Virus record (IMG/VR): IMGVR_UViG_3300032236_001599
Span: 1 to 44,378 of that record
Strand: one strand, 5' to 3'
Length of the DNA: 44,378 nt
Origin: a virus
Part shown: in pieces, positions 6,703-35,709 of the stretch
Layout: the number at the start of each line of letters is the position of its first letter
Position numbering within the stretch: position 1 is the first letter of the stretch
Program-made: the position numbers and the translations under genes
Notes under the pieces: generated by a model
Database searches by the model: none
What the model was told of the DNA's origin: nothing
The model's input: the letters and a program-made list of their open reading frames with translations, nothing else

Positions 6703-6710
6703 GTTGGTAT

Positions 6711-8753: not shown

Positions 8754-8764
8754 TGACGCCTCCC

Positions 8765-9370: not shown

Positions 9371-9400
9371 GTTGGTGTGTTTCTGGGTTGGTGGGGGAGA

Positions 9401-10252: not shown

Positions 10253-10272
10253 GTGTGTGTTGGGGGAGAGGG

Positions 10273-10719
10273 TTATTCGGCGAAGGAGATTTTCGGGTCG
10301 GAGTATTTGACCGTGCGGGCGGAGTCGAGGCGGTCGAGCAGCGGCTGGTCCGTGATGGACTTGTAGTTCTTCTCGGGGATGGAAAACTCGATCTTGAACA
10401 GACGTTCGACGGTCTGGTGCGGCATGGTGCGGGCGACCTTTTCGAGGGCGGCGGAGTCCCACTTGTAGGTGGCCTTGACCTCGCCGGTCAGCTTGAAGCC
10501 ATCCACCTCGAAGGTGTGCTGGCCGGAGAGCTTGTCCTGCTGTTCGAGAGACGTCCGCAGGACGGCCTCGAAACGGCGGCGCAGTTCCGTGTTGATGCCA
10601 TCGAGCTTCTCCTTGGCGGAGTCGATGATGGCGTTCTGGGCGGCAACGGCTTCGCGGAGATCCGCGAGCGTCATGGCTTCCGGGGCTTCAGCCGCCGGCT
10701 TGGCTTTGTTCTTTTTCAT
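10273..10719 (-). CDS. Conserved recombination-cassette protein, unknown
   Basis: This encodes 148 residues. The N-terminus is lysine/alanine-rich, followed by a helix (residues 18-60) and a mixed region with KWDSAALEKV and KIEFSIPEKNYKSI. This architecture is common directly beside Sak4-like ATPases in phages, but I know no established function. The ATG follows CACCCCCAAACCGAC, an SD-less leader. It overlaps the end of the upstream HTH gene by 32 bp, which indicates co-translation. Confidence 0.75.
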   Translation of the reverse strand: MKKNKAKPAAEAPEAMTLADLREAVAAQNAIIDSAKEKLDGINTELRRRFEAVLRTSLEQQDKLSGQHTFEVDGFKLTGEVKATYKWDSAALEKVARTMPHQTVERLFKIEFSIPEKNYKSITDQPLLDRLDSARTVKYSDPKISFAE

Positions 10720-10981
10720 GTCGGTTTGGGGGTGAGAGTTCCTTGCTCGTGTTGGGCTTCGAGCGGGTGACGAAAGAGTTCAGGTCGAGCGGGCGGCGTT
10801 CGTGCTGGGCCAGCTCCAGGAGCTGCGCGATGCGGACTGCGGGGATGTTGTCCCGCTCAAGCCACTTCTCGATTGTCTTGATCGAGAGCTTGAATCCACG
10901 CGCTTCGAGGCGACGATGCAATTCAGCACGCCCGCCGAAGTGGGCGACCAATTTGCGAATGTCGATACGGGTGAAAAGCAC
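10688..10981 (-). CDS. Cro-like helix-turn-helix regulator
   Basis: This encodes 97 residues if started at GTG 10981, preceded by GGAACCCAACGCC, which matches the C/A-rich leaders of this phage. A further-upstream TTG at 11050 is open but unlikely. Residues about 12-60 form an HTH: GGRAELHRRLEARGFKLSIK, then TIEKWLERDNIPAVRIAQLL, resembling small Cro/YdaS-type proteins. It is the first gene of the leftward early operon and is divergent from the repressor at 11132, the classical Cro position. A polar tail follows the domain. It probably binds the operator(s) between the two genes. Confidence 0.75.
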   Translation of the reverse strand: MLFTRIDIRKLVAHFGGRAELHRRLEARGFKLSIKTIEKWLERDNIPAVRIAQLLELAQHERRPLDLNSFVTRSKPNTSKELSPPNRHEKEQSQAGG

Positions 10982-11131
10982 GGCGTTGGGTTCCTGTGTT
11001 TCGACAACTTGGAGGTGTTCGTGTAGGTCGTCAATCAGCAAAACAAACAATCTTACTCAGGCCTTGACGAACACCTACAAGGCGTAGGATAGTGGCCTTG
11101 CGGCACCCAACTGCCGAAAGGAGGAAAACCG
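10982..11131. promoter_or_regulatory. Divergent lysogeny control region
   Basis: This spacer separates the Cro-like gene (leftward) from the repressor (rightward). On the plus strand TTGACG at 11064-11069 and GATAGT at 11088-11093, 18 bp apart, form a reasonable sigma70-like promoter for the repressor. A second TTGACG faces left at 11034-11029, though its -10 is weak; an alternative leftward -10 is TAAGAT at 11055-11050. Both TTGACG boxes are followed at once by a CCTACA half-site. The full palindrome 11074-11088 lies between the rightward -35 and -10, where a bound repressor would block RNA polymerase. Confidence 0.6.
11074..11088 (+). promoter_or_regulatory. Candidate phage operator, site 1
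   Basis: CCTACAAGGCGTAGG is an imperfect inverted repeat (CCTAC/GTAGG) located in the spacer of the putative repressor promoter. The same pattern recurs at 39374-39388 (plus) and on the minus strand at 2857-2871 and 38906-38920. Its location between divergent regulator genes makes it the reference operator; binding by the XRE or Cro-like protein is inference. Confidence 0.6.
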
Positions 11132-11509
11132 ATGACTAAAACGCAGCCCATGGCAACGCCTGGCTCGTCGACCAAACAGGAGTTTGGCCGCCGGCTTCTA
11201 TCGCTCATGCAAAGCAGGAATTGGAACCAAGCCGACCTTGCCCGGGCCGCAGGCCTCGGGCGGGACAGCATCTCGACCTACGTCAAGGGTTCCGTCTTTC
11301 CCGACCCTAAGAACCTAAAGAAGATAGCGGATGCGTTCGGGACTACCCCGCAGGCGCTTATGCCGGACGGCATGGCGCAGACGAACGACGCCCCGATGTT
11401 GGAGATCCGCCAGTCGGCGACCGACTCCGACAAGGTCCATATCCGCATCAACCGGACCGTCACCTTCGAGCAGGCGACCAAGATTTTTTCCATCATCAAC
11501 CAAGGATAA
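11132..11509 (+). CDS. XRE-family HTH repressor
   Basis: This encodes 125 residues. The HTH spans about residues 18-75, with FGRRLLSLMQSRNWNQADLA, AAGLGRDSISTYVKG and KKIADAFG as the core helices. The remaining about 45 residues form a short strand/helix tail and not a self-cleaving peptidase domain, so induction would not follow the LexA/CI autocleavage route. A strong SD (AAGGAGG, 8 bp before ATG) distinguishes it from the SD-less genes around it. It precedes the integrase by 9 bp, suggesting one transcript. It is the likely lysogeny repressor. Confidence 0.85.
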   Translation: MTKTQPMATPGSSTKQEFGRRLLSLMQSRNWNQADLARAAGLGRDSISTYVKGSVFPDPKNLKKIADAFGTTPQALMPDGMAQTNDAPMLEIRQSATDSDKVHIRINRTVTFEQATKIFSIINQG

Positions 11510-11518
11510 TTCCCCCCT

Positions 11519-12637
11519 ATGCCAAAACCCAACAAAGGCCCGCAGCTCGCCGTCAACGACGCGGGCATCTACGAGATACGCTGGACTGAAGGACGACGTT
11601 CTATGCGTCGTTCCACCCACACAAAGGACAGGACTCACGCCCAGGCGGCCCTCGGCCGCTTCCTGATCGGCAAGTCCGAACAAGAGAAGGAACGGCCGGT
11701 GACAATCGGCGACCTGCTCGACACCTACGCCCGCGAACATGTCCAGCGCCTGTGCGTCGACAAGACCCGACAGGTCTGCTGCATCGAGGTACTCAAACCC
11801 TACTTCGGCCATCTCTGCCCATCCGACATCACCCCGCAGGTCATCGCCTGCTACGAACGCGACAGACGCGCCGGGAAGATAAACGGACGAACCGCCGGCA
11901 ACGGCACGATGCGTCGGGAGCTAAACTGCCTGAAGGCCGCAATCAACTACGGCGTCCGACACCGGACAATCACGGCGGCCGACAAGCCACACATCGACCT
12001 ACCCGACGCCCCTCCGCCCAAGGATCTATGGCTTTCGACCGAGCAGTTGAATCGGTTTGTTGACCTGGCTCAGACCATGTTTGCTGGGGATAAGTTGTCC
12101 CGCCTTTACAGGTTTGTCATGATTGCAGCCGAGACGGCGTCGAGAAAGTCCGCCGTCGTCACGCTGAAATGGAATCAGGTCGACCTTAAGAACCGGCTGA
12201 TTCACTTCCAGAACGACGGCCTAGCCCGCACCAACAAGCGCCGCGTGCCTGTCCCTATCTCCGACGCCCTGTATGCCGTCCTAAAGCGGGCCTATGCCGA
12301 ACGGACTACCGAGTACGTCTTGGACAATCCGCACTCCATCCAGCGCCACTTCGAGATGCTGACGGCCCGCGCCGGCGAAGGCTTCGAGAAGGTGACACCC
12401 CACACCCTACGCCACACCTGGGCGACGCAGGCGGCTCAGGCCGGCGTCCCTCTGTTCGAGATCGCCGGCGTGCTTGGCGATACGGTTCAAACGGTGATGA
12501 AGGTCTACGCCCACCATTGCCCCGACCACCTGCGGGGGGCCGTGAACTTCCGCGCGCAACCTGCGCGCAACGCCCCTGAAATGCCACCTACGACGACCAA
12601 CACGCCCAGCCAAGTCATTGTATTCAAAGCAGGTTGA
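11519..12637 (+). CDS. int: Tyrosine recombinase (phage integrase)
   Basis: This encodes 372 residues. It has an N-terminal arm-binding region, a SAM-like core-binding domain at about 60-160, and the catalytic domain at about 170-345. Catalytic residues visible are R209 (ETASRKSAV), K240 (TNKRRVPV), H295 and R298 (TPHTLRHTW), and the nucleophile Y330 (MKVYAHH). The usual second His/Trp before the tyrosine is Asp321 (VLGDTVQT), a substitution seen in some family members. It inserts and excises the phage genome at an att site. It is transcribed with the repressor and convergent with the late genes. A 40-residue polar tail follows the catalytic domain. Confidence 0.95.
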   Translation: MPKPNKGPQLAVNDAGIYEIRWTEGRRSMRRSTHTKDRTHAQAALGRFLIGKSEQEKERPVTIGDLLDTYAREHVQRLCVDKTRQVCCIEVLKPYFGHLCPSDITPQVIACYERDRRAGKINGRTAGNGTMRRELNCLKAAINYGVRHRTITAADKPHIDLPDAPPPKDLWLSTEQLNRFVDLAQTMFAGDKLSRLYRFVMIAAETASRKSAVVTLKWNQVDLKNRLIHFQNDGLARTNKRRVPVPISDALYAVLKRAYAERTTEYVLDNPHSIQRHFEMLTARAGEGFEKVTPHTLRHTWATQAAQAGVPLFEIAGVLGDTVQTVMKVYAHHCPDHLRGAVNFRAQPARNAPEMPPTTTNTPSQVIVFKAG

Positions 12638-12777
12638 TGTAGGGTGCAAGCCGACGCCGCCCCGTCGCGGCAATAACTGGCATCATGTCACCCTACGGAA
12701 AACGCCAGCAGGGCCAATGCCTTGACTGGCGTTTCTGTTTTGTCTGTTGGCTGGACGTTCCGTGAATCTTGCGCGCA
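12638..12777. other. Intergenic region after integrase; candidate attP
   Basis: No gene is seen here. The segment opens with GTAGGGTG (12639-12646), mirrored by CACCCTAC (12689-12696), an 8-bp inverted repeat around a 42-bp centre. Being next to int, it is the most likely attP location. The core cannot be identified without a bacterial attB. The terminator annotated separately occupies 12700-12734. Confidence 0.4.
12700..12734. terminator. Bidirectional terminator between integrase and late operon
   Basis: A perfect 9-bp stem AAACGCCAG (12700-12708) / CTGGCGTTT (12726-12734) encloses a 17-base loop. T-rich stretches follow on both strands (TTTCTGTTTTG to the right, TTTTCC to the left). It sits between convergent transcription units and would stop the integrase transcript and the end of the late transcript. 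Confidence 0.7.
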
Positions 12778-13080
12778 TCAGAGCCTCTTGATCTCTGACT
12801 TGCCCTTCTTTCGCACGGCGATGATGGCAAGCGCCAGGATCTCCGGAGCGGTGTAAGACGCCAGCGCCACGATGCCAAGCCACAGGCCCACCGAGTTGAC
12901 GTAGTCCTTGGTCGCCAGCCCCACCGCCACGCCGGCGAAGGTGGCTGTCGCGGCCGATACCGCGTACGCCAGGAACGATGCCTTCTCGCCGAGGGCCAGC
13001 CTGCGGACGATGCCGCCGGCGGCCGAGATGGAGGCCAGCGTCACGACATCGCTCCAGATTGAGTTTCCTGCGTCGTTCAT
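12778..13080 (-). CDS. Holin-like membrane protein
   Basis: This encodes 100 residues from ATG 13080 (ATGA overlap with the upstream gene). Two to three hydrophobic segments are present at about residues 12-27, 35-56 and 64-90, with a short charged C-terminus (RKKGKSEIKRL). Size, helices and cationic tail are typical of phage holins, which form inner-membrane lesions that time lysis. It is the last gene of the late operon, following a lipoprotein and a small membrane protein, so the lysis-cassette role is well supported by context. Confidence 0.8.
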   Translation of the reverse strand: MNDAGNSIWSDVVTLASISAAGGIVRRLALGEKASFLAYAVSAATATFAGVAVGLATKDYVNSVGLWLGIVALASYTAPEILALAIIAVRKKGKSEIKRL

Positions 13081-13340
13081 TTTCTGCGGTATCCCATCTT
13101 CCATAGTGCGTCTGCGATGATCGTCGCCGTCCGGTGGACCTTGGTTTCTGCCATGTAAGGGCAAGCTACGTGGAGAAACTCATGGATAGCCGAATCCAGA
13201 AGTTCGTTTTCGGACTGCCGTGGGTCGAGAGTCACCTCCCCGGTCCGCTTGTCCGCTTCCCCGAAGTTGGTTCCGTTCTTGCCGTTCGGAGCCGCGTCGC
13301 CGAGTTCGTCAAACGCCACTTTTATCTTGGGGATTTTCAT
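13077..13340 (-). CDS. Mini zinc-metallopeptidase-like protein (HExxH)
   Basis: This encodes 87 residues from ATG 13340. The centre contains LLDSAIHEFLHVA, an HExxH zinc-peptidase motif at residues 53-57, preceded by a strand-like region (EVTLDP) as in small M48/SprT-like proteins. No signal peptide is seen. Upstream in-frame codons are rejected because they would lie deep inside the lipoprotein gene; even so it overlaps that gene's end by 32 bp. It ends in ATGA overlap with the holin. A small metalloprotease-like protein between a lipoprotein and a holin is unusual, and its substrate is unknown. Confidence 0.75.
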   Translation of the reverse strand: MKIPKIKVAFDELGDAAPNGKNGTNFGEADKRTGEVTLDPRQSENELLDSAIHEFLHVACPYMAETKVHRTATIIADALWKMGYRRK

Positions 13341-15365: not shown

Positions 15366-18300
15366 TCAATGCCGTTTCTTCGGGGTAGGTTCGCCTGCGA
15401 TGGTGTCGGCGACTTCCTTCTCCGTCTGAGGATTGGCGACGATCTGGGCGGCGCCGGCGGCGATAGGTCCGCCGACAGCCCCGAGGGCCATGTTGGCCGC
15501 CGGCACGGCGACCGAGCGGTAGGCCGCCCGGACCGCGTTGCGTTCGGCCGCGTTGGAGTCGGGGTTGGCGGCGAGTTCCTTGACCGCCTTGAAGGTCTTG
15601 CCAGCCCAATCGCCCATGACGCCGGCAGGCATCTGGCCGCGATGGATGGCCTTCCACGCCATCTCGCCAGGGCCGGTGACGCCGGTGAACATGAGGGCGT
15701 CCGAGGCGTCCTTGACCCATTCGGGCAGGATGTCGTCGGGGTTTTCCTTCTTGTCCGAGGCGCCGTTGATGAGCTTCCGCAGCTCGCCGAGGCCGTAGTA
15801 GGCGGCCGTCAGGACGGCCATGGCGCCGTAGGAGCCGGTCGCCGCGAGGCGTTCGGTGGCGCTGTATCCGTTCTTGCCCGTCACCTTCTTGGCGATTTCG
15901 GCCATGTTGCGGGTGTGCTGCATGGACCATTCGTAGGGGTAGGTCGTCAACTGGAACAGGATCTTGCCGAGGGGGGAGTCGTTGGCCGCGATGGTCTTGG
16001 ACGAGCGGTTGGCCTGCACCATGGCCTGCTTGGAGAAGACCTGGACGGCGTTGCGGTAGGCTGCCGCCTGCGGGTCGTTCGGGTCGAGGATGCGGCTGAG
16101 CTGTTCCTCCGGGGCCTGCTTGCGCATGTCCTTCACCCAGTCGGCAAAGCCGTTCTGAGCGTCGGGCTTGACGCCGAGTTCGGCCAGGCGGTCCTTGGCG
16201 AGGTTGTCCATGCGGACGTCGAAGCCGGCGTCCCGCAGCACCTTCACGAGGCCGGTGGAGTTGTCGAGATGGCCGATGATCTTGTCGATGTAGTCGGAGC
16301 CGACGCGGAGCGAGGATTCGCGCTTGGCCGTCTCCGTGGCGCTGATACCGTAGAGACGGTGGACGTTGTCGGCCTGCTTGCGCCAGAAGCCTTCGGAGCC
16401 TCCCTCGTCGGAGTGGAAGCCTTCGGACATGGAATCAAGGCCGCGATGGAGGTGGTTGATGCCCATCTCCAACGCCAGGGCGGAGTAGAGGTCATGGCCC
16501 TTGCCGTAGGCCGCCTCGATGCCCTTGCTGAGGGCTTCGGGGTTGTAGGCGTCCTTGCGGGTCATGAGGATGTTCCGCACGCGGTTGAGGTTCGTCAGGA
16601 TGGTGGTGCCGGCGTCGATGGGGTTGCCGGTGCGGATGCCCATGCTTCCCGGCTCCACAAGGTTGAGCAGGCCGGTTCCCTTGAGGAAGGCGGTGGTGAC
16701 GAAGGCGTTGTTGGCGTTCAGCAGGGCAGTCTCCGCCTTATTCAGGCGGGCTGAGGTGACGCCGAGATACGACTGCAAGGCGGTCTGCATCTCGTTGATA
16801 TGGTCGGCGCTGACGCCCTCGTTGTACATCTTGCGCTTGGATTCCGCCCAGCCAGATCCGTCGGCGCCGAAGCGCTTGGCGATTTCGGCACGGCGGGCCA
16901 GCGAGCCGGAGTATCCGGCCAGCAACTTGCCGACGTCCTTCTCGCGGAAGTCGTCGAACATGGCCGCTTCTTCCGTGGTGAATTGGCGGGCCTTTTGGAA
17001 GTCCTCCTTGGAGCCGGGGCTGCCCTCCTGGAAGATGTTACGCTCGAAGTCCAGACCCTCGCGTCCGAGCAGGACGGCGTCGCGCCAGGCTTCGGCCTTT
17101 TTGACCGACGCATCCGCGATGAGCTTCCGCTTGCCTCCGCTGCCGGCGCCGGCGTACTGCTCGCCGAACTCCTTCTGAAGGTCTTCGGGGGACATCCGCT
17201 CATATCGGGCCTTGTAGGCCTTGGATGCCGCCTCGACGAAACCCTTCGGGTCTGCCGCGACGGATTCCTCGTTGATGCTGCGGGGGAAGTAATCCTTGAT
17301 TTCTCCCATCTCCAAGCCGGCGTCGATGCCGTACTGACGCATCTCTGCCAGAACCTTCTTCACACGCTCGACGGCCTTGCCAGTTTCGCCGCCGATGTTG
17401 GTAAGCCGGCCTTCGACGGCCTTGACGAACAGATCGTTGTACCTTGCCCGCTGTTCGGGCGTCATCTTCTGGACGTCCTTCAGCACCGGGCCGAGGGCCA
17501 AGCCGAGTTTGTTGCGGAAGGCGGTAGCCTGGTTCGAGACGGCCGTGCCGTAGTCCCGCTGGTTTTCGGAGTCGGGACGACCCGGAGCCAGGGAGAAGTC
17601 GTCGGCGACCTTGCGGGCCGTGGGCGACTGCGGGTTGATGTCGGCGACCGTGCGGATGCGCGTGCCGACGGACTTGAAGAACTTGACGACCGGGAAATCG
17701 GAGACGGAGCGGTAGGCGGAACCGCCGACCTTGACGGTCGGCTCCTTGCCGTCGGCGGCCGCCTCAAGGTCCGAGGCGTCGTCCTTATGGGCCGACTCCT
17801 GACCTGCGGCGACAGGGTCGCGGCGGGATTCCATGACATCGTGGCCGGTGTCGTGGATGTTGTTGGACCCGTATTCCTCTGCGGAATAACGTCCCTTGGC
17901 GAAGTTGGACAGAATCTTGGCCGCCTGATCCTTGCCGAACATCTGGCGGAAGTTGGTCTTGATGCCTTCCCAGAGCTGGACGAGCTTGTCCTTCCAGGTC
18001 CTGGGGCTTTCCGTGTAGACGGGGTCGCTGTTCAGGCGCTTGCGGACGACGTCCTTGAACGTCTCGGCGAACCATTCGTTGGCGTTGAACAGGCGGTAGG
18101 CTTCCTCGGAGGCGCGGACGCGGTACATCGGTTCGCCCTTGCCCGGAATCTGGGTGAAGCGGAGATCTTTGGTCAGTTCGGGGTATTCCTGGGAGACGCG
18201 CTGGATGTCCGTTCCCTTGACGCGGACCTTGTTCCAGTCCGCATCCTCGGCGCCGACTAGCTTGGCGAAGCCGGGGTTCTTCTTGAGGAAGTCACGGCGG

Positions 18301-21300
18301 GCGTCCAGCCATTCGGCACGCAGGGCGGCACGGTCGGATTCTGGGAGGAATTGGGCTAGGTGGTGGGCGACCTCATGGGCGGCCGTATCCTCGAAGCGGC
18401 CTTCGCGGATGGCGTCGCGGAAGATGGTGACGATGCGGTTGGCCGACTCGTACTGACCCTGCTGGCCTTCCTGGCCTTCACGGACGGACAGTTTCACGCC
18501 GTCGAAGAAACGGTTTCCGACCATGTTGAGGATGCGGGTAAGACCCTCGACCTCCTTGTCGGAAAGCTCGCCATTCTTGCGGGCCTCGAAGACGGCACGA
18601 TCCACGATGCCCTGGTAGCCACGGCGAGCGGGGTTGTCGTTGGCTCGGTTTTCGGCGTTCTGGTTGATGCGCCGGTCCAGCTCGTCGGCCTTGCGGGCGT
18701 CCGTGGCAGGGTTGCGTTCGACGTTCGGCTCGACGGACGGGGTAGTCTGATCAGGAGATTCTGCGGTCGCCGTACGCTTGACGTCACCTTCATCGCGAAG
18801 GGACTTGAAGTCGTTCCCGACAAAGGACGGGATTTCGTGGGCGTAAGACTTCCCGTCGCCCACCATGTCGACCGTCTGGAGGTTTCCGGTGGCCGACGAA
18901 AGTTTGGAGAGGTTTTCTCCGATGGCCTTGCGCTGGGCGACATCCATACCGTCGCCGACATAGGCGATCATGTTGACGGCGTTCGAGCGTTCGATGGCAG
19001 GAAGCAGGGTGTCGAGGCCGCCTTTCTGGCGCAGCTTCGTCATCTTGTCCGGCGTCATCTCTATGGAGCCGACAGGTTCGAGGTTGTTGTTGAGCAGCAG
19101 GACTCCGGTCTTGTCTCCGAATACGCTCTTGGCGAATGGAATGGCGTCGGACGGCTGTTTGAGTTGAGAGCCGATGGTGTCGTTCTGTGTGAAGACACGC
19201 TCGGTGATCGGTATGGTCTTGGTGCGGGCGAACTGCGGGATGGCAGCGCCTTCGGTCACGGCACCCTTGGTGTCGACAAAACTGTATTTGTCCTTCGCGA
19301 TGGCGAACAGGCCGCCATACTCGATGCCGGACTTCTTGAGAATGTTGGTCGTTCCGCTGTTGGTGCTTATGTCAGCAGGGGAAAGTTGGGTCCGACCAGA
19401 CGGGTGATTGTGGACGGCCCACACCTTGGCGGCTCCAGGGGTACCCAACGCGGCGCCGGTGATGATGCCCTGCGGAACCATGGCGGCCGTATGCGTGCCG
19501 GTGGTGATGCGGGCGATGTTGATGATCTTGCCGTTTTTGTCGGCGACGACGACGGCGAAGACTTCCTGCGGACGCTGGGCGAACCATTCTCCCGTGACGT
19601 GGGCGACGTCGGCAGGGGTCTGGACGGTGTCGAGGCCTGAGCGGAGGGAGCCAGCCTCGGCGTGTTCGACGACGGCGCCGAACTTGCCGCCAGGAAGGTC
19701 GACGCGATGGATGCGGTCCAAGGCCGGCTCCTGCCCCTTGGCTGGCTCGGCCTGATTGGCGGCAATCTTCTGGGCTTGCTGGATGACCCTGCGCTTGCGG
19801 GCCTGCTGGGCTTCGGTGGGCTGGGCGTTGGCTTCCGGGGCTGGCTTGACTGACTTGACGTTGCCGTTGGAGTCGAGCTGGAACTCCACCTGCTTGGGGC
19901 CGAACAGGCTTTGTTCTTCGGCTTCGTTGACCTGATCGCGGCGAGACGCAAACATGTCGCCCGTGGCGGTGTCGTTGTCCCTGAGATACTGCTTCTGCTC
20001 GTCGGGCGTCATCTCGTCGAACGACTTGGCGACGGGTTCGGCCGGCTTGGCGACAGGGTTGCCGCCGTTGGCGGCCGCTTCTTCTTCCTTGCTGACGCCG
20101 GCCTCGGCGTAGATCTGGTCGCGAAGCTCCGGGTTGGTTCGCCAGGTGCTGAGTTCCTCGCGCTGACGCTTGAGGTCGTCGATGTACTTCTTGGTCTTCT
20201 CGACGTTCTTGACCTTCACGCCGCCGGCGACGGCCTTGTCGGGACGCTTGGCGGCACCCTGCACGGCACGGAGCTGGTCGTCGATGGCGGAGCGTTTCTC
20301 CGCGACTTTCATGGCCAGCTTCTCGGCGATCTCCTGGAGCTTGGCGTCGTCCATGCCAAGGGCGTCCCACATGGTTCCTTGGCTCTCGGCGTCAGACTTG
20401 GCCTTAACACGCTCGCCCAGCAGATCCTTGATGGTGTTCATCACATCGACGACGGCCTCGGGGTGCATCCCCTTGGCGGCCGCCTTGGCGCCGGCGTTCT
20501 GCACGACCTCGTTGCCGGGGGCGTTCAGGGCGATGGCATGGGCCTGCCTGCTGTCGATGCGGTCGTTGATGAAAAGGTCGAGGGCGTCGCCCGTGAGGTT
20601 CTTCGCGATTTCGACGTTGCGACGCGCGCCTTCGGTGGACGATACGCGCTTGGCGGCCGACTCCATGGCGGCGTCGCCGCTCTTTTCACGGACTGCCCGG
20701 AGATACTTGACCGCGTCCTGCGGCGAACCCTTGCCGTCGGCGATGTTGATTTCGGCCGCCTGCATGCGGGCGTCGAGGGCCGACCATCCGTCCGCTTCCT
20801 TCAGGACGTGGACGTTCAGATCCTTGCGGCCGGCACGCTGGGCGAACTCAAGGCGGTGGTGGCCGTTGGCGACGATGTACTTCTGACCAGGTGCGAGGCC
20901 ATGGGCCGCCGGGTCGTTAGGCTGCCAGACGGTGACGATGCCGGCCTTGGTTTCATCCCATTGGCCGGAAAGCTTGTCGCGCTGATTGACGCCCGTGTCG
21001 ACCTCGTCGGTCGCTTTGTACTGCATGAGCTTCGGGTCGGCCTTGATTTCGGATGAGGCGACACGCTCGACGGGCAGGTTGTCCGTGGAACGCAGGGCGG
21101 CGCCTTCGCCCTCCACGTTGCGGGGCTGGGCTACACGCGGAGTCTGGACCTGCGGACTCGGAGCGGGGGCGGCTTCCTTGGGAGTTTCCGTGGGGGCTTC
21201 CACGGGGGCGACATCTGCGGCGGCCGGCTCAGGCTTGGCGGCTTCGGTTTGCGGGGCAACGGTCGGCTCCTTCGGCTGGACTTGCGGAGATTCAGGGGGG

Positions 21301-22334
21301 CTAATCTCCGCAGATTTGCGGGGAATAGTCGGCTCGGCGGCGGGAGCCACGAACTTGGCTTCTGCGGCGGGTTTGACCTGCGGGGCAGGGGTTGCCTCGG
21401 GCTGGACCGCAACAGGGGCAGGCGTGGCAGGCTTGGGGGCGGGAACAGGCTGCTGGACGGCAGGGGCCGGGGCGGGAGCAGGTTGAGCCGCCTGCGCTTG
21501 GGCCGCTTGCTCGGCGGCGATAAGGTCGGCGAGGGTGGAAGGAGCGGCAGCCTGAGCAGGCTGGGCAGGCTGGGCTTTAGCCGCCTGTTCAGCGGCGGTA
21601 AGGTCGGCCAGCGTGGCGTTTTTGCCGAACCGCGAACGGATGTCTTTAACTGGAATACGGCCGGCGACGTCGAGGGTGTGGCTGACGGGGTTGCCAGGCA
21701 GGAACAGGCCTTCGCCGATGGAGCCAGGAAGATGGGACAAGGCTTCCGTGAAGGGCGTTCCGGTTGCCAACTCCGTGCCAAAACCAAGGCCGCCGGCGAC
21801 AGCGCCGCCCTGCAAGGACTGACGGATCGCGTTGGCGTCGCCGCTCAGCGCGTTGACGGTGGTGGTAGGATTCGCCATGGCGGCGACGGATGGAAGCATC
21901 GCGCCGTACTTGGCGGCGTTAGGGCTGTTGATTGCCCCGACGATCTGCTGAGGGGAAGGCGGGACGACCTTGTTCTGAAGCCAATCGAACGCGGCGCCTC
22001 CGCCGGCAGCGCCTACGCCAGCGCCTAGCAATTCAATGCCAGCGGCGACGGGAGGGGCTTCGGCGAAGAAGCCAGCAAGCGGAGACACGGCTTCGGCTCC
22101 AAGGCCGGCACCGACCAAGCCGCCGCCGGTCGGAAGGACGCCACGCAGGGCCGACGTGCCGAATACCTTGGCGGCGGAATCGACCTGACTAGGGTCAAGC
22201 GCGATGACGTTGGACGGGTCAATTTCGTCGCCCGTTACGTCGTTGAGTTTCTGTCCTTGCGTTGGAGCTGAAACGACAGGCTTCTGAGGCGCTGCGCTTT
22301 GAACAAGAACGTCTTTAGGGTCAAACTCGGCCAT
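15366..22334 (-). CDS. Giant polyvalent ejection protein: ParB-like, RadC/JAMM-like and HExxH domains
   Basis: This encodes 2322 residues, the largest gene. Visible layout: alanine-rich N-terminus (1-220); Pro/Ala-rich linker (about 240-410); ParB/sulfiredoxin-like domain around VANGHHRLEFA (488-498); coiled-coil region (about 600-870); RadC-like MPN domain with JAMM motif H975-x-H977...S985..D988 (HNHPSGRTQLSPAD); zincin-like domain with HEVAH at 1320-1324; a long helical region; and a C-terminal part (about 2100-2322) with LFQLTTYPYEWSMQHTRN and a hydrophobic segment. Position after the ejection-type genes and size match podovirus internal core proteins (T7 gp16 place), and the mixed enzymatic domains match polyvalent proteins that enter the cell with the DNA. 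Individual activities are inferred from motifs. Confidence 0.88.
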   Translation of the reverse strand: MAEFDPKDVLVQSAAPQKPVVSAPTQGQKLNDVTGDEIDPSNVIALDPSQVDSAAKVFGTSALRGVLPTGGGLVGAGLGAEAVSPLAGFFAEAPPVAAGIELLGAGVGAAGGGAAFDWLQNKVVPPSPQQIVGAINSPNAAKYGAMLPSVAAMANPTTTVNALSGDANAIRQSLQGGAVAGGLGFGTELATGTPFTEALSHLPGSIGEGLFLPGNPVSHTLDVAGRIPVKDIRSRFGKNATLADLTAAEQAAKAQPAQPAQAAAPSTLADLIAAEQAAQAQAAQPAPAPAPAVQQPVPAPKPATPAPVAVQPEATPAPQVKPAAEAKFVAPAAEPTIPRKSAEISPPESPQVQPKEPTVAPQTEAAKPEPAAADVAPVEAPTETPKEAAPAPSPQVQTPRVAQPRNVEGEGAALRSTDNLPVERVASSEIKADPKLMQYKATDEVDTGVNQRDKLSGQWDETKAGIVTVWQPNDPAAHGLAPGQKYIVANGHHRLEFAQRAGRKDLNVHVLKEADGWSALDARMQAAEINIADGKGSPQDAVKYLRAVREKSGDAAMESAAKRVSSTEGARRNVEIAKNLTGDALDLFINDRIDSRQAHAIALNAPGNEVVQNAGAKAAAKGMHPEAVVDVMNTIKDLLGERVKAKSDAESQGTMWDALGMDDAKLQEIAEKLAMKVAEKRSAIDDQLRAVQGAAKRPDKAVAGGVKVKNVEKTKKYIDDLKRQREELSTWRTNPELRDQIYAEAGVSKEEEAAANGGNPVAKPAEPVAKSFDEMTPDEQKQYLRDNDTATGDMFASRRDQVNEAEEQSLFGPKQVEFQLDSNGNVKSVKPAPEANAQPTEAQQARKRRVIQQAQKIAANQAEPAKGQEPALDRIHRVDLPGGKFGAVVEHAEAGSLRSGLDTVQTPADVAHVTGEWFAQRPQEVFAVVVADKNGKIINIARITTGTHTAAMVPQGIITGAALGTPGAAKVWAVHNHPSGRTQLSPADISTNSGTTNILKKSGIEYGGLFAIAKDKYSFVDTKGAVTEGAAIPQFARTKTIPITERVFTQNDTIGSQLKQPSDAIPFAKSVFGDKTGVLLLNNNLEPVGSIEMTPDKMTKLRQKGGLDTLLPAIERSNAVNMIAYVGDGMDVAQRKAIGENLSKLSSATGNLQTVDMVGDGKSYAHEIPSFVGNDFKSLRDEGDVKRTATAESPDQTTPSVEPNVERNPATDARKADELDRRINQNAENRANDNPARRGYQGIVDRAVFEARKNGELSDKEVEGLTRILNMVGNRFFDGVKLSVREGQEGQQGQYESANRIVTIFRDAIREGRFEDTAAHEVAHHLAQFLPESDRAALRAEWLDARRDFLKKNPGFAKLVGAEDADWNKVRVKGTDIQRVSQEYPELTKDLRFTQIPGKGEPMYRVRASEEAYRLFNANEWFAETFKDVVRKRLNSDPVYTESPRTWKDKLVQLWEGIKTNFRQMFGKDQAAKILSNFAKGRYSAEEYGSNNIHDTGHDVMESRRDPVAAGQESAHKDDASDLEAAADGKEPTVKVGGSAYRSVSDFPVVKFFKSVGTRIRTVADINPQSPTARKVADDFSLAPGRPDSENQRDYGTAVSNQATAFRNKLGLALGPVLKDVQKMTPEQRARYNDLFVKAVEGRLTNIGGETGKAVERVKKVLAEMRQYGIDAGLEMGEIKDYFPRSINEESVAADPKGFVEAASKAYKARYERMSPEDLQKEFGEQYAGAGSGGKRKLIADASVKKAEAWRDAVLLGREGLDFERNIFQEGSPGSKEDFQKARQFTTEEAAMFDDFREKDVGKLLAGYSGSLARRAEIAKRFGADGSGWAESKRKMYNEGVSADHINEMQTALQSYLGVTSARLNKAETALLNANNAFVTTAFLKGTGLLNLVEPGSMGIRTGNPIDAGTTILTNLNRVRNILMTRKDAYNPEALSKGIEAAYGKGHDLYSALALEMGINHLHRGLDSMSEGFHSDEGGSEGFWRKQADNVHRLYGISATETAKRESSLRVGSDYIDKIIGHLDNSTGLVKVLRDAGFDVRMDNLAKDRLAELGVKPDAQNGFADWVKDMRKQAPEEQLSRILDPNDPQAAAYRNAVQVFSKQAMVQANRSSKTIAANDSPLGKILFQLTTYPYEWSMQHTRNMAEIAKKVTGKNGYSATERLAATGSYGAMAVLTAAYYGLGELRKLINGASDKKENPDDILPEWVKDASDALMFTGVTGPGEMAWKAIHRGQMPAGVMGDWAGKTFKAVKELAANPDSNAAERNAVRAAYRSVAVPAANMALGAVGGPIAAGAAQIVANPQTEKEVADTIAGEPTPKKRH

Positions 22335-22379: not shown

Positions 22380-24251
22380 TTACCTGCGGGCGATGAGGGG
22401 AGGCACTTGAGGTGCCGGAGCGGGAGTGACGGTAAGCGTGCGAGGGTCGAACCGACCGTCACGGACGGCTTGGAAGAAGGCCGGCAGGGACGCCTGCATC
22501 GCGTCACGCGCTTCGCCGTATCCCCAAGGGGTGAATGCTTCTACGCCGAGCGGTCCGGCTTCAGGGATGCCGTACTGCTTGCGATTGATACCAATCTGCT
22601 GGGCAAGGGCCATGGCGTCAGACGGCATGCCGGCGCTATTAGCGGTGCCAAAGTTTCCGGAGGCATACTGAGCGATGCGAGGGTCGCTCATGGCCTTCTG
22701 GCGCTGGGCCAGCACAATCTTGTCCTGAGCGTCGAGAAGAAGCTTTTGGACGGTAGGGCCATATCCGGGATTAACCTGATTGCCGGCGTTTCCACCGTCG
22801 GCTGCCTGAGCGGCGGCCAACTGCTCGGGTGTGATGACTCCAAGGGCCAAGGCCTGCTTGGCTACGTCGCCTGCGGCACGGGAAGCGTCCTTGGCAGGGA
22901 TGACTCCAAGCCAGTTGTTTTCGCCCTTCATCGACTTGAAGTCGCCGAGGTCTTCGTTGCCTTGGAAGACAGGCTTGGTCTGGTACTTGCCCGTGTTGGC
23001 GTTCCAGTAGGCGACGGTATCCTGTCCGGTACGCTTGTCGATGATGTGCGTAGCCTGCCCATGACGCATGGACGCGGCGACCTGATCGCCGGGGTTGTAG
23101 TCGACGCCCTTGATGCTCAGGCCGCCCTGCTTGTTCGGGAGGATGTCGCCGGCGGGGGCGGCAGGCGCCGCCTGCGGAGAGGCGGGAGCCGTAGCCGGAG
23201 CGGGCTGGGAAGGGGCGGCAGGCGCTTGGTCAATCGGAGCCGACGGGTCGAGCTTCGGAATGACCGACTGACCCTGCTGGGGGGCTGGGAATTGGTCGGC
23301 AGGGGTAGACGGATGGGGGGCGGCAAGGACGCCACCGCCGGGAGCCATGAAGCCCTTAAACCTCTTGCCGACGGTCTTGCCTCCGCCGTGGAAGAAGTCG
23401 CTGATGGAGCCGGTGACTCCGGGGCGAGCCTGGGTGACGTCTTCGTACTGGATGTTGTTCGGGTCGATGCCGAACTTCTGCAACGCGGCGCCGTAGTCGC
23501 CGTGGTTTGCGGCCAGCTCCTGGGCGATGGCGGTAGACTGGGCAGGGTCGAGCGTAAGTCCGCCGAGGCGAGGATCCTGATTGAGGATACGCTGGCCGCG
23601 CTGGACGTCGCTGAGTTTCGGGCCGGCGCCAGGCGCGTTGGCCTTGGCGTCGAGGGCGTTCTGCTGGCGGGTATTCTTGCCTTCTTCGCGCGTGGCGGTG
23701 TCGGCTGATCGGCCTGCGATGGTTGCGGCGGCGCGGGAGTTGCTGAAGACAGGGGCTGCGAAACCGCCTTGGATTCCGTAGACTTCAGCGGGTGTGAAGA
23801 TGTCGCTGAGGTGAGGGTCGAGGCGGGTTTTGTATTCCAAGCCCGACAAGTTGGCCTTGTTCGTAGCCTCGTCGGCCTGCGAGCCGGTCAACCTTGCTTT
23901 CTGCTGGGCTTCATCGACGAGATAGGGCGTCTGCTTCTGAAGGGTCAGCATATGCTGAGCCTCGTAGGGATTCCTCGTACGAGTCATCAGCAGGAACTGC
24001 CGAGCAATCGGATCAGAGACGCCGGCACGCTGAAGCGCCTCGTCCGTGTAAGCCGCGTTGCGGGCGGCTTCATCGTCCGCCTGCAATCCAGCCTTGCGTG
24101 CTTCGGCTTCGTAAAGCGCCTGATGGGCCTGCTGAAGTCGGGCGGCTGCCATGGCGGCAGGGCTGAACTTATCGGCGATGTTGCCAAGGCCGTTTATGTA
24201 GCTGTTGTCAGGTCCGTAGACTGCGGTTCCAAATGCGGATCGTTCGGCCAT
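22380..24251 (-). CDS. Putative internal virion/ejection protein
   Basis: This encodes 623 residues: helical and alanine/glutamine-rich in the first 230 residues, then a proline-rich low-complexity linker (about 300-375, PAPATAPASPQAAPA) and a mixed C-terminal half. No enzymatic motif is seen. Its place between a gp14-like protein and the giant protein corresponds to the T7 gp15 slot. It is probably a component of the ejectosome; there is no sequence-level proof. It starts 4 bp after the upstream stop. Confidence 0.75.
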   Translation of the reverse strand: MAERSAFGTAVYGPDNSYINGLGNIADKFSPAAMAAARLQQAHQALYEAEARKAGLQADDEAARNAAYTDEALQRAGVSDPIARQFLLMTRTRNPYEAQHMLTLQKQTPYLVDEAQQKARLTGSQADEATNKANLSGLEYKTRLDPHLSDIFTPAEVYGIQGGFAAPVFSNSRAAATIAGRSADTATREEGKNTRQQNALDAKANAPGAGPKLSDVQRGQRILNQDPRLGGLTLDPAQSTAIAQELAANHGDYGAALQKFGIDPNNIQYEDVTQARPGVTGSISDFFHGGGKTVGKRFKGFMAPGGGVLAAPHPSTPADQFPAPQQGQSVIPKLDPSAPIDQAPAAPSQPAPATAPASPQAAPAAPAGDILPNKQGGLSIKGVDYNPGDQVAASMRHGQATHIIDKRTGQDTVAYWNANTGKYQTKPVFQGNEDLGDFKSMKGENNWLGVIPAKDASRAAGDVAKQALALGVITPEQLAAAQAADGGNAGNQVNPGYGPTVQKLLLDAQDKIVLAQRQKAMSDPRIAQYASGNFGTANSAGMPSDAMALAQQIGINRKQYGIPEAGPLGVEAFTPWGYGEARDAMQASLPAFFQAVRDGRFDPRTLTVTPAPAPQVPPLIARR

Positions 24252-24255
24252 TGTT

Positions 24256-25068
24256 TTACTTGAAGCTGAACATCGCCGGGCGGATTGCGGAACTGAACGG
24301 ATTCGGAACCGCAGGAGGGGCGACGTAGAAAGGATTGTTCGGAAGAAGCGACTTGTTGTAGTTGGAGAAGTTGTCGCTGATGGTCGTCATGGTCGACGGA
24401 TTCGACAGATTCAACGCGGCGTTATTCTTGGCCAAGACGCTGCCAATCGAAGGCTTGTCCCACCATCCTGCTCCGGCTCCCATTCCGACGACGGAACCGC
24501 CGAGAGAAAGAAGGTCGCCGACGTTCTTAAACTGATCGCCTTTGTGCGAGGCGGCTTCCACTTCGAACGGAAGAACTCCGGCGGAACCCTGCATGAAGTT
24601 GCCGAGCTGCGCTTGCCGCTGGAGCATCCGCTTGTTGTAGATGTCGTTGGCAGCCTGCTGGTCGCCGAAGCCCTGGAGAGCTGCGGCGGCGTTGCCGGCA
24701 AGAGACGCCGTATTCAGCGCCTTGGCCGATTCCTTCGCCGTGTCGGTTGAGACTATCGTGTTGGCGTTCTGGTCGCCGGCCTGAGACTTGTTCGAGACGT
24801 CGACCGGGGCGACGGCCGCGGTGGCGGTGTCATAAGCAGACTTGCGGTCAGCCTGATGGCCTGCCTGCTGGCCTGCCTGCGTGCCGGCCGATGCGTTCGA
24901 CAGGGACTGCGAGAAGAAGTCGTTGGCCTGATTCTGGAAGCCGTGCTGACGCTCGCGTTCAGCGGCCTGAGCGGCGGCGATGGCAGAGCGGGCCTTGGAC
25001 TGTCCATAGGCCTGCGCGGCGGTGCCGGAAGCGGTTAGGGCGATGGAGGCTGAGACGGGATCGCACAT
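24256..25068 (-). CDS. Internal virion protein, T7 gp14-like
   Basis: This encodes 270 residues. The N-terminus MCDPVSASIALTASGTAAQA with a glycine/alanine helix, followed by a long alanine/glutamine helical region (ERERQHGFQNQANDFFSQSL), is characteristic of podovirus ejection protein B. The C-terminus is asparagine/proline-rich (LLPNNPFYVAPPAVPNPF). Such proteins form a channel across the outer membrane during DNA entry. It is 3 bp from the preceding stop, in the late operon. Confidence 0.75.
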   Translation of the reverse strand: MCDPVSASIALTASGTAAQAYGQSKARSAIAAAQAAERERQHGFQNQANDFFSQSLSNASAGTQAGQQAGHQADRKSAYDTATAAVAPVDVSNKSQAGDQNANTIVSTDTAKESAKALNTASLAGNAAAALQGFGDQQAANDIYNKRMLQRQAQLGNFMQGSAGVLPFEVEAASHKGDQFKNVGDLLSLGGSVVGMGAGAGWWDKPSIGSVLAKNNAALNLSNPSTMTTISDNFSNYNKSLLPNNPFYVAPPAVPNPFSSAIRPAMFSFK

Positions 25069-25724: not shown

Positions 25725-26201
25725 TTATGTCCCTGCTGGTTTCTTTGTCCAGCAATACACGAAGAACGACTCCCCGTGTCGGCCGTAGTTGGTCGCCTCC
25801 GACTCCTTGTAGGCCCCAAGACGTTCCAGCCAACGATGGGCCGTCTCATGGGTCGACAGGCTCCGGCACTCAAGGCGATGCCAGCCGGCGGCGTCCAAGG
25901 ACGGGAAGAAGACCCGCTTGGCGAACCGATGGGCGGACAAAGCCACCTCGTCGAAACGGTCGGTAGCAAGCATCCAGACCGACCAGACGCCGTCCCACAT
26001 CGGCACGGCGCCGGCGATGACCACCGGCTCCCCGTCATCCGCATGGCCGACGAAGCCGTATTCGCCGGCCCGCAGGATCATGTTGGCGAACGCCCAAGGG
26101 TCGTCCGTCCATTGTGTGGCGTAGACTTCCTCGCGGTCCTTGGCCCGCATGTTATGCACGACGTGATGTACCCCCTCCGGGTACAGCTCAGTCGGCTTCA
26201 T
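25725..26201 (-). CDS. T7 gp13-like / GNAT-fold internal protein
   Basis: This encodes 158 residues. The sequence runs as a GNAT-like fold: helix, WAFANMILRAGEYGFVGHAD, then strands VVIAGAVPMWDGVWSVWMLA, RLECRSLSTHETAHRWLERL and GAYKE. T7-type internal virion protein A and related DUF2833 proteins have this pattern and this place directly after the tail nozzle gene. It overlaps the nozzle gene by 14 bp. Acetyltransferase activity is not expected from the family and is not claimed. Confidence 0.75.
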   Translation of the reverse strand: MKPTELYPEGVHHVVHNMRAKDREEVYATQWTDDPWAFANMILRAGEYGFVGHADDGEPVVIAGAVPMWDGVWSVWMLATDRFDEVALSAHRFAKRVFFPSLDAAGWHRLECRSLSTHETAHRWLERLGAYKESEATNYGRHGESFFVYCWTKKPAGT

Positions 26202-29825: not shown

Positions 29826-30872
29826 TTAGGCGACTTCGTACACGCCGCAGCCGTTGAGCTGCTTGGCGGCCAGGCCGCCGGTCCACGTCATCGCGCGGTA
29901 CAGGACGTACTGGTTGTACGGACGGGCCGGGCTGTGCGTCTTCTTGTCTTCGCCGTCCATCACGTAGAGGTTGATGTTCGAGCGGTCGATGAAGTACGCA
30001 CGGTTGGTCAGACCGAGGTCGTCGAGGGTCGGGTCGTACTGGAACTCACCGACGCCGAGCATGGCCATCTTGGCGATGCCGATGTCCGTGGTGCCGTTCT
30101 TGATGAAGCCCTGCTGGGTGTACAAGCCCTTCTCAGCGATCTCAGCTTCGAGCTTCTGGAGGAAGCCGGAGCCGGCGAGGATGAGGTCGGGCTTGCCGCC
30201 GAAGCGGTTCAGCTGACGGACTTCCGTGCGGAGGGCCTTCGAGATGACCTGGGATCCGGAGACGTAGGTCAGCTTGTTGGCTCCGACGAGGGAACGGTTG
30301 CGCCAGAAGGCGGTCGTGGCACGGTCGATGCCGCCGACGGTACCCGTGGTGGGGTCGTCGGTGATCATCGAGAGCAGACCGGGGACCTGCTTGGCGTCCT
30401 GGGTGCCGTCCTTCCAGAGCATCTGGTTGAACGAGCGGTTCCAGCCTTCGGTCATGTCGGCGAGCTTCATGTCGAGAAGGCCGGTCAGGACCGTGAGGTC
30501 GCGTTCGGAGTGCTTGGACACGGAGTCGCCGTTGAGGGAATCGGTGACGCTGAGGCCGTCAGTCTTCAGCTCGGTGAGCGTCAGGCTGATGCCGGCGTGG
30601 ATTTCCTTCCACGGATAGACCACGCGCTTCGTGTTCGCCGGGTTGGCGTACGAGACGGTGTCATTGTGGGTGAAGCCAGCGATAGCGGTCGTGTAGTCGA
30701 AGACGACCGGGATGCTGATGTTACCCTTGCCGCCCGGGAAGGTCTTCTGCTTCTTGGTGAGGGCCGCGAGCAGAGGCTTTTCCTGGATGGACTGGGCGAA
30801 CGCCTCGCCCTTGATGTAGAAATCGAGGGCGGACGCGGTGATGTTGTTCAGTTCCTGAGTGGTGAAGGCCAT
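29826..30872 (-). CDS. Major capsid protein
   Basis: This encodes 348 residues. FTTQELNNITASALDFYIKG at the N-terminus and the middle ISIPVVFDYTTAIAGF, VVYPWKEIHAGISLTLTELK (E-loop/spine-like) and PDLILAGSGFLQKLEAEIAE fit an HK97-fold coat protein of a podovirus. It is preceded by a scaffold gene and followed by a strong terminator, which is standard for coat genes. The ATG follows AAAAACCCTAAGAACCAGA, with no SD although expression must be very high. Confidence 0.88.
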   Translation of the reverse strand: MAFTTQELNNITASALDFYIKGEAFAQSIQEKPLLAALTKKQKTFPGGKGNISIPVVFDYTTAIAGFTHNDTVSYANPANTKRVVYPWKEIHAGISLTLTELKTDGLSVTDSLNGDSVSKHSERDLTVLTGLLDMKLADMTEGWNRSFNQMLWKDGTQDAKQVPGLLSMITDDPTTGTVGGIDRATTAFWRNRSLVGANKLTYVSGSQVISKALRTEVRQLNRFGGKPDLILAGSGFLQKLEAEIAEKGLYTQQGFIKNGTTDIGIAKMAMLGVGEFQYDPTLDDLGLTNRAYFIDRSNINLYVMDGEDKKTHSPARPYNQYVLYRAMTWTGGLAAKQLNGCGVYEVA

Positions 30873-34104: not shown

Positions 34105-35709
34105 TCAAAAACCGCCCATTCGCAAGAACATGCGTCGGGCATCCTCGGCCTTGGTCGCCCATTTGACCCATGCCAGCGTGCCTGGCTTGGGCTGGTCCGG
34201 CACCTTGACCACAGGTCCGTTGGCCGCCACCTGGCGGGACAGACCCATGCCGATGTGGGCCAGAGCGTCGACGAAGTCGTCGTGACGGGCGGAGGGGAAC
34301 TTCAGCAGCTCGTCCTGGGCGTCCTGCCACCAAGGGGAGAACTTGGGGAAGTAGACCTTGCCCATCGCCATGCGGCCACGGATGGCCTGCGCGCGGGTCT
34401 GCTTGTCCTTGGCCGGGGTGACTTCCTCGACGACCGTGTAGACGCCCCGCTCCTGCTGGATCTTGCGAAGGAACGGGCCGATGGACTTGGAGATATGCCC
34501 TTTTTCCGCCCACCAGATTGATGGGTTATGCCTTTGCATCAAGTCGACCATCGCGTCGACGACGTCGTCCGTGTCGGCCCGGCGCCACCAGACATCGGGA
34601 AGAATCCAGATGTTGTCTTCCTCGTCGACGCCGACCGGGATGAGGCAGGTCTTGTCGGCCGTCTGGGCCGTCGAGACGGCATGGTCGGACGCCACGTAGA
34701 CCCGCAGGTTCTTCGGCAGCATCTCGGGCGAGTAGGTTTTCAGCCACTTACGCTCGAAGAAGTCGCCGTCGTCGGGCGTCGGCTTGCCCTGATACAGGGC
34801 GGAGAAGCCCTTGCCGTTGAGCCGGCGAATCTCGTTGAGGTATTCGAGCGGGTATCGCTCAGGCCATAGCGCCTCGCCCTTGGCACGGCCCATCGGGTCG
34901 TTGTCGTCAGCGATGGCCGGAAGGCTGAGGATGCGCCATTGTTGGGCGACCTCGTCGTCGTAGCAGGGATTGCGAGGATCGGTCAGCCGGCCGACCAGGT
35001 CGTCTTCGTGCCAGCGGGTCATGATGATGACCACCCGTGCGGCGGTCATAAGTCGGGTCATGGCGACGTTCGTGAACCAGTCCCAGAGCTTGTCCCGCTC
35101 CCGCTTGGACTCGGCTTCCTGGACGCCCTTGATTGGGTCGTCGATGACCAGCAAGTCGGCGCCTCGGCCGGTCAGGCCGCCGCCCACGCCTACGAAGTTA
35201 GCCACCCCTCCCTCGTCCGTCTTGATGCGTTCTGCCGACTGCTCGCCTTGGCGCAGCTTGCACCCCGGGAAGACCTGCTTGAAAGACGGCGACCGCATGA
35301 TCTCGCGGACCGAACGACCGAAGTCCATCGCCAGGTCTTCGTTGTAGGTCGCGAAGATGACTTGCCGATACGGATCCTTGCCAAGGAACCATGCCGGGAA
35401 ACGGCGGGACGCCAGCTCGCTCTTACCGTGGCGTGGAGGCATGGAAATAATGAGACGCTGCCAAGCCCCCTTCTCGACCTGTTCGAGGGCGGCGCAGATA
35501 GTCTCGTGATGCCTGACGGGCTGATACCGCGATTTCTCGGCGTCGTCGGGGAACTCAGGGTCGGGCATGGTCATCGCCGTGAAGTCCAGCAACGTCTCAC
35601 GCGCCTTCTTCACGCGGATGAGCCGCTGCGCGGCAAGCATCTGCGCCTCGACCTCAGCGATCTCGGCGAGCCGTCTCTTTTCCTCGGCGTTGGGAGCCTT
35701 CCGCGTCAT
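34105..35709 (-). CDS. terL: Terminase large subunit
   Basis: This encodes 534 residues. ATPase: Walker A SMPPRHGKS (89-97), ATYNED and Walker B GADLLVIDDP (183-192, catalytic acid following), then the coupling motif VVIIMTRWHEDD. The nuclease domain has VASDHAVS (D342), WAEKG, and ARHDDFVDALAH near the C-terminus: the three acidic sites of the RNase H-like nuclease. It drives DNA packaging and cuts the concatemer. The start is in ATGA overlap with the 59-residue gene upstream. The small subunit is unusually remote at 1431-1979. Confidence 0.97.
   Translation of the reverse strand: MTRKAPNAEEKRRLAEIAEVEAQMLAAQRLIRVKKARETLLDFTAMTMPDPEFPDDAEKSRYQPVRHHETICAALEQVEKGAWQRLIISMPPRHGKSELASRRFPAWFLGKDPYRQVIFATYNEDLAMDFGRSVREIMRSPSFKQVFPGCKLRQGEQSAERIKTDEGGVANFVGVGGGLTGRGADLLVIDDPIKGVQEAESKRERDKLWDWFTNVAMTRLMTAARVVIIMTRWHEDDLVGRLTDPRNPCYDDEVAQQWRILSLPAIADDNDPMGRAKGEALWPERYPLEYLNEIRRLNGKGFSALYQGKPTPDDGDFFERKWLKTYSPEMLPKNLRVYVASDHAVSTAQTADKTCLIPVGVDEEDNIWILPDVWWRRADTDDVVDAMVDLMQRHNPSIWWAEKGHISKSIGPFLRKIQQERGVYTVVEEVTPAKDKQTRAQAIRGRMAMGKVYFPKFSPWWQDAQDELLKFPSARHDDFVDALAHIGMGLSRQVAANGPVVKVPDQPKPGTLAWVKWATKAEDARRMFLRMGGF

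Follow-up and report, generated by a model that had tools for sequence, protein, structure and literature searches.

Previous work on polyvalent proteins, in which unrelated domains are joined in one large chain encoded among late genes, predicts that these proteins enter the cell together with the DNA and are split by a zincin of their own (Iyer et al. 2017, PMC5512222). In that account DdrB of phage P1 is packaged in processed form and the vRNAP of phage N4 unprocessed. Section 33 of the paper confines RadC to the polyvalent proteins of conjugative elements and DdrB-ParB to those of the phage type; section 16 mentions RadC in prophages. For ejection proteins, passages of a review (PMC8954989) describe the swapping of domains and, in T7 gp16, a cytoplasmic C-terminal part that binds DNA.

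The window analysed here, a virus record of 44,378 bases, encodes a protein that resembles the class of Iyer et al. in being a large late-gene product with unrelated domains; zincin, ParB-like and RadC domains are all on the published list for that class. Unlike the proteins of section 33, this phage protein unites RadC with a ParB-like domain, and unlike the class, its zincin region and C-terminus are unmatched by the Pfam models tested. It can also be likened, by published description, to T7 gp16 and the podovirus ejection proteins, as a giant last member of an internal cluster with a putative DNA-binding role, although the enzymatic domains differ.

The gene and its genomic setting

The polyvalent protein gene (15366..22334, minus strand) is a complete, intact ORF of 2,322 residues, read from an ATG at 22334 down to 15366, with AAGG just 5' of the start; on the plus strand the same interval has stops in the frame of the gene. 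An earlier note had placed three motifs in one 2322-residue protein here, and all three are found in it, on the minus strand: NGHHR at residues 490-494, HNHPSGRTQLSPAD at 975-988 and HEVAH at 1320-1324. When the residues of the protein were shuffled 2000 times, the JAMM pattern HxHPx6SxxD never arose (0/2000), NGxHR arose 9 times and HExxH 44 times. The note's further claim, that ParB-like, RadC/JAMM and HExxH parts are combined in a polyvalent protein of the virion region, is backed by profile, structure and synteny, and each motif is kept in homologues wherever its module is present. At least two biochemically unrelated domains thus share one chain, the ParB-like and RadC parts being recognised by fold and profile and the HExxH region by conservation. 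Ahead of them, residues 1-420 (21075..22334, minus strand) comprise hydrophobic stretches rich in small residues (73-114) and an Ala/Pro/Gln-rich linker (about 240-410); this part is not alignable, and profile scans gave no significant similarity to relatives.

The gene is the final one of a minus-strand virion cluster, behind head and packaging genes. The cluster includes the genes for the terminase large subunit (34105..35709), the portal (31971-34088) and the major head protein (phrog_9953; 29826..30872), one that weakly matches tail proteins (28727-29431) and one for a putative internal virion protein (phrog_308; 25725..26201). Between these and the giant gene lie a conserved neighbour (24256..25068, minus strand), kept in loci L008, L010 and L012, and the gene directly upstream (22380..24251, minus strand), which resembles the gene ahead of the giant in L010 and L014. 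Elsewhere in the window, an integrase (11519-12637, plus strand) indicates that the phage is probably temperate. The minus-strand genes for a ResIII/SNF2-type helicase (6711-8435), a Cas4-like exonuclease (5935-6771) and a primase/helicase (3055-5328) form the phage's own replication and recombination set. Neither of two plus-strand ORFs (6894-8402 and 8753-10366) matched PHROG or NCBIfam; both are probably shadows of genes on the minus strand.

Among annotated relatives, Microcystis phage Mae-Yong1326-1 (50.0%) comes closest by terminase, followed by Rhizobium phage RHph_N65 (46.6%), and both retain the gene order head, tail-tubular-like, stabilization, internal. The Microcystis phage has at the place of the polyvalent gene a 2,441-aa protein that matches Pfam LPD1 and is weakly similar to the polyvalent C-terminus; in the Rhizobium phage a protein of 708 aa follows a 'putative injection protein'. 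The Microcystis giant (L004, 23089-30414) was deposited as 'peptidoglycan transglycosylase'; Pfam finds LPD1 in it but, with E allowed up to 1, no match to a transglycosylase.

ParB-like and RadC modules

The segment noted earlier as ParB-like has a ParB fold and extends well beyond the reported motif. The module spans residues 421-765 (20040..21074, minus strand) and consists of a ParB N-domain and a helix-turn-helix (HTH) domain, followed by helices. An AlphaFold2 model from 33 sequences reached a pLDDT of 89.4, and all four Foldseek matches to the PDB at E < 0.001 are ParB. VIA-align superimposes the model on Caulobacter ParB 6t1f_D (Z 9.9, 183 residues, 4.7 Å), Noc (Z 9.8, 194 residues, 4.3 Å) and KorB (Z 9.4, 200 residues, 6.1 Å), the alignments covering model residues 1-219, which correspond to the N-domain and HTH domain. 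For models made up mainly of helices, Z values of less than about 13 can be commonplace, and we accept the identity, despite the modest scores, because the match list is consistently of the ParB family. For some of the highest-ranked ParB rows the rmsd exceeds 11 Å, so the two subdomains are arranged differently. In UniProt the structure matches go by the name 'Large polyvalent protein associated domain-containing protein'; a predicted viral protein, the best of them, is 82% identical over 201 columns.

Comparisons at the level of profiles are fainter. The profile alignment with Caulobacter ParB through the HTH is weak (E 0.11), and HTH_ParB matches weakly in 3 of the 33 rows of the ParB alignment. 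Pfam ddrB-ParB (PF18763) finds nothing in the window record at E up to 10, and hhalign of the module profile with P1 DdrB gave nothing significant. DUF1015 and other weak Pfam matches on this segment were all under their cut-offs and were set aside.

Seven residues of the module, Gln438, Lys440, Gly491, Arg494, Asn530, Gly536 and Asp540, are invariant in all 33 rows. Residues 491-494, GHHR (20853..20864, minus strand), align with ParB box II, GxxR; the counts for Gly491 and Arg494 include the effect of one scan pattern that had selected for their motif, whereas Gln438, Lys440, Asn530 and Gly536 lie outside both scan patterns. The module thus shares with ParB, Noc and KorB the fold of the N-domain and HTH and the GxxR box, and differs from them in being embedded in a giant protein and in the loss of ENxQR. 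ENxQR is the third CTP motif of the CTP-switch ParB proteins. Its Asn is retained as Asn530, but neither the Glu nor the Gln-Arg is the commonest choice at its place, Ile, Gln and Ala being commonest at residue 529. A canonical CTP switch is therefore doubtful. With both an N-domain and an HTH predicted, the module probably binds DNA.

The module is found in other phages as well. Searching 50,697 phage records with tblastn matched 24, every one over the ParB segment, from Vibrio, Shewanella and Prochlorococcus phages and an uncultured Nohivirus phage, and an IMG/VR profile scan confirmed 240 loci. Eighty of these 240 supplied the ParB alignment (32 loci after a 75% identity filter); 19 of the same 80 have HExxH on the C-terminal side of ParB, and one has the JAMM pattern there. 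In that one (L021), ParB and HExxH occur together with a JAMM site at which the RadC match stays below threshold, at 18.9 bits; its protein shows a further, weak similarity to ParB (E 0.0018) at residues 1335-1375. The giant proteins behind the tail tubular genes of T7-like phages also carry the module. The giant of Vibrio phage 1.183.O (AUR93113) and its counterpart in Shewanella phage X14 share with the window protein a homologous ParB module, a late position and HExxH, but profile scans found no RadC in either; the Vibrio giant further differs in its methyltransferase-like domain and Pfam LPD38. The latter protein (L002, 13398-21518) was deposited as 'coil containing protein', with ParB, methyltransferase-like, HExxH and LPD38 parts inside it.

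The RadC-like JAB domain occupies residues 890-1031 (19242..19667, minus strand), its extent being taken from the profile scan. Pfam RadC (PF04002) matches residues 905-1020 with an E-value of 2.8e-14 and 53.5 bits against a curated cut-off of 22.1; the full-length RadC models NF000642 and TIGR00608 stay under their cut-offs (45.3 against 180 bits and 34.9 against 133.85 bits). The first five Foldseek matches of the module are RadC 2qlc, with which VIA-align gives Z 14.5 over 122 residues at 2.6 Å. The JAMM site (975-988; 19371..19412, minus strand) is formed by His975, His977, Ser985 and Asp988, with Glu924 as the candidate glutamate, and these five residues are invariant in 4/4 and 6/6 alignment rows. 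BubCD scored Z 8.5, and the other JAMM chains among the matches listed scored below 8. The earlier suggestion of a deubiquitinase-like activity is weakened by this placement, since the JAMM part belongs with the RadC clade (Z 14.5 against 8.5 for BubCD), which a passage of Iyer et al. (2017, PMC5512222) argues to be devoid of the groove for a ubiquitin tail.

RadC was also used to search for further loci. A profile scan of genome_contigs gave five places, the best two of which were examined: phage tail, internal virion and lysis genes adjoin the RadC locus in L101, and an integrase and a terminase small subunit are close by in L102. The IMG/VR scan gave 13 loci, among which are the records of family members P0002 and P0009. 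Together with L101, L102, the plasmid locus L020 and L021 these make up 17 JAMM-bearing ORFs. The JAMM pattern is present in 17/17, the scan pattern having selected for its 'HN' part in 13 of them; RadC and the domain that follows it are each found in 16, and HExxH or HExxxH lies C-terminal of RadC in 15, the two exceptions (L101 and L112) being cut by a contig end. A ParB module precedes JAMM in two of the 17, and the full order ParB, RadC, post-RadC, HExxH is seen again in L111 (3,249 aa). The distance from the JAMM histidine to HExxH is near-constant, at 237-242 residues, in L110, L113-L117 and L119, which suggests a fixed RadC-zincin cassette in these loci.

The order recurs on a conjugative plasmid. 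In NZ_CP100552 (Pseudomonas sp. KHPS1) one 1,810-aa ORF holds the RadC and post-RadC unit, then HExxxH and HExxH, one zincin of this ORF being MPTase-PolyVal (E 5.2e-53); this protein differs from that of the window in lying among conjugation genes and in that profile scanning found no ParB module. Its CDS as annotated (8826-13232) seems too short at the 5' end, the ORF (L020, 7800-13229) being open from 7800, and the intact RadC unit sits 5' of the annotated start.

The post-RadC domain (residues 1032-1173; 18816..19241, minus strand) may itself derive from a JAB domain. Its profile aligns co-linearly with that of RadC in hhalign (E 0.012, score 21.7, against no more than 17.8 in 60 column shuffles), and with 17 sequences in each profile the result is similar (E 0.014, score 19.6, against no more than 16.6 in 100 shuffles), hhalign's own probability being only about 3%. 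L021 was omitted from this comparison because its post-RadC part had no match. Pfam RadC weakly matches one of six post-RadC members (E 0.025). The JAMM His pair is missing from the domain, and its profile found unconvincing matches only among PDB sequences. These alignments suggest a degenerate second JAB domain.

The probable zincin region, the C-terminus and exchange of modules

Residues 1211-1510 (17805..18704, minus strand) are probably a zincin-like metallopeptidase, as judged from the motif, its conservation and the pattern of the class. IMG/VR segment scans identified eight relatives with this region and the C-terminus (P0002, P0003, P0004 and P0007-P0011), which with the window protein make a family of nine; the complete relatives have 1,951 to 4,528 aa. 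His1320, Glu1321 and His1324 of HEVAH (18363..18377, minus strand) are invariant in 9/9, as are the adjacent His1325 and, in EWFAE at 1420-1424 (18063..18077, minus strand), Glu1420 and Glu1424, which provide a candidate third zinc ligand. Searches of the region against Pfam and NCBIfam found no match, and its profile matches in the PDB were unconvincing; the MPTase-PolyVal model (PF18818) has no hit in the window with E allowed up to 10. The region aligns weakly (E 0.007, probability 5%) with part of the Microcystis phage protein that is zincin-like and itself a weak Peptidase_M78 match (E 0.092), and profile-profile comparison with the Vibrio phage protein was not significant. The predicted model is poor here (pLDDT 59 overall), with helices and no sheet ahead of HExxH. 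Of the checks proposed in the earlier note, profile searches by segment succeeded for RadC and left the zincin region unmatched, and structure prediction gave a confident ParB model and a RadC fold match with a poor result around the zincin.

The note's ejection-type C-terminus corresponds to a conserved region (residues 1556-2322; 15369..17669, minus strand) that is LPD38-like in position only. Its conservation in 9/9 proteins stands, Pfam LPD38 is unmatched, and a role in ejection is suggested by its position. Pfam LPD38 (PF18857) finds nothing in the window and matches the Vibrio phage protein at 2.2e-51; since the family C-terminus showed no significant profile-profile similarity to either the Vibrio or the L021 protein, we do not name it LPD38. 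A weaker match to this region is present in the Microcystis phage protein and in L102.

Profile scans of the nine proteins show that the front half is exchanged while the rear half is kept. Both the zincin region and the C-terminal region of ~770 aa are found in 9/9 by profiles made from these same nine proteins, while RadC is present in three (P0001, P0002 and P0009) and the ParB module in one. P0003 and P0008 have a GNAT-like segment, under the Pfam cut-off, and P0007, 56% identical over residues 1182-2319, has neither ParB nor RadC. Two of the nine, P0004 and P0011, are fragments that lack their start, and modules may lie in the absent parts. We conclude that a constant rear half bears exchangeable front modules. 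A YRGQ stretch, ADP-ribosyltransferase-like by eye, lies between zincin and C-terminus in the relatives L006, L013 and L014 (4,050-4,528 residues). Other searches for relatives gave none: a whole-protein scan of viral_contigs had 9 pattern matches and the zincin profile 69 in genome_contigs, with no relative in either, and the C-terminus segment query of IMG/VR was unproductive, unlike those with RadC and zincin.

Probable entry with the DNA and alternative readings

Gene position, relatives and published models make co-entry with the DNA the most likely reading: we regard the protein, with a probability of about 0.7, as a phage polyvalent protein of the ejection type that is packaged in the capsid and enters the cell with the DNA. 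It would be produced late alongside the head proteins, and packaged and delivered as the last and largest of the internal (ejection) set. The shared C-terminus of ~770 residues would act as a packaging and translocation chassis, and the adjoining zincin would cut the chain and free the forward modules, as proposed for the polyvalent class. The ParB-like N-domain and HTH may then grip the incoming DNA, while the RadC-type JAMM, with the possibly inactive JAB copy, may act as an early metal enzyme on a nucleic-acid, nucleotide or isopeptide-type substrate.

A possible alternative, to which we give well below even odds, is a protein that is chiefly a gp16-like machine for DNA entry, in which ParB grips the DNA and the zincin and RadC are accessory or partly degenerate, with a role in assembly. 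The constancy of the C-terminus in all nine proteins while ParB and RadC vary agrees with it, as do the ParB module in the giants of T7-like phages and the binding of DNA by gp16 described in the review (PMC8954989), but the JAMM residues in 17/17 modules suggest a selected catalytic function. It seems rather unlikely that the HExxH region, with its conserved metal-like motif, is a structural domain made of helices and no peptidase: the unmatched Pfam, NCBIfam and PDB profile searches, and a low-confidence model with helices where a sheet is expected, would fit such a domain, whereas invariance of HExxHH and of Glu1420 and Glu1424 in 9/9, the weak alignment to the Microcystis stretch with its weak Peptidase_M78 match, and HExxH or HExxxH behind RadC in 15/17 ORFs point to an enzyme.

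We consider it improbable that the protein is not injected at all and either works where it was made, as a protease or scaffold for assembly, or acts in the lysogen. A zincin could process head proteins, and our literature search found no virion data for this polyvalent family, virion proteomics for the window phage or a relative included; the passages searched of the P-SCSP1u structure paper hold nothing on the giant protein. Against this stand the nearby internal virion protein, the size and linker-rich N-terminus of the protein, and the packaging of published members of the class, P1 DdrB and N4 vRNAP (PMC5512222). Far more speculative, and a long shot in our estimate, is that RadC/JAMM, dead JAB and zincin form a mobile, self-releasing cassette of phages and plasmids, in which the JAMM pair, released by the zincin inside the entered cell, removes a covalent mark, and the ParB N-domain and HTH keep the effector at the entering DNA. 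If so, the mark could be a ubiquitin-like conjugate of defence (CBASS, Bub) or a nucleic-acid modification.

The polyvalent class and its single domains are already known, having been predicted in 2017 (Iyer et al., PMC5512222), and RadC together with a ParB-like domain in one phage protein is a less usual combination. It also differs in the ParB module with its HTH, in the order RadC, post-RadC, HExxH recurring in phages and a plasmid, and in having a zincin and a C-terminus of families that the tested Pfam models do not match. Among the papers listed by our literature search on RadC in phage polyvalent proteins, none besides Iyer et al. was relevant, and we do not claim the order as unpublished. 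The presence of RadC in a phage protein revises the confinement to conjugative polyvalent proteins in section 33 of the 2017 account, section 16 of which mentions prophages. Nearly all functions of the class are predictions, and the protein supplies concrete modules that can be studied apart, their active-site residues being intact. The activity of RadC itself is disputed, and the recurring order RadC, post-RadC, HExxH makes a role for it at DNA entry testable.
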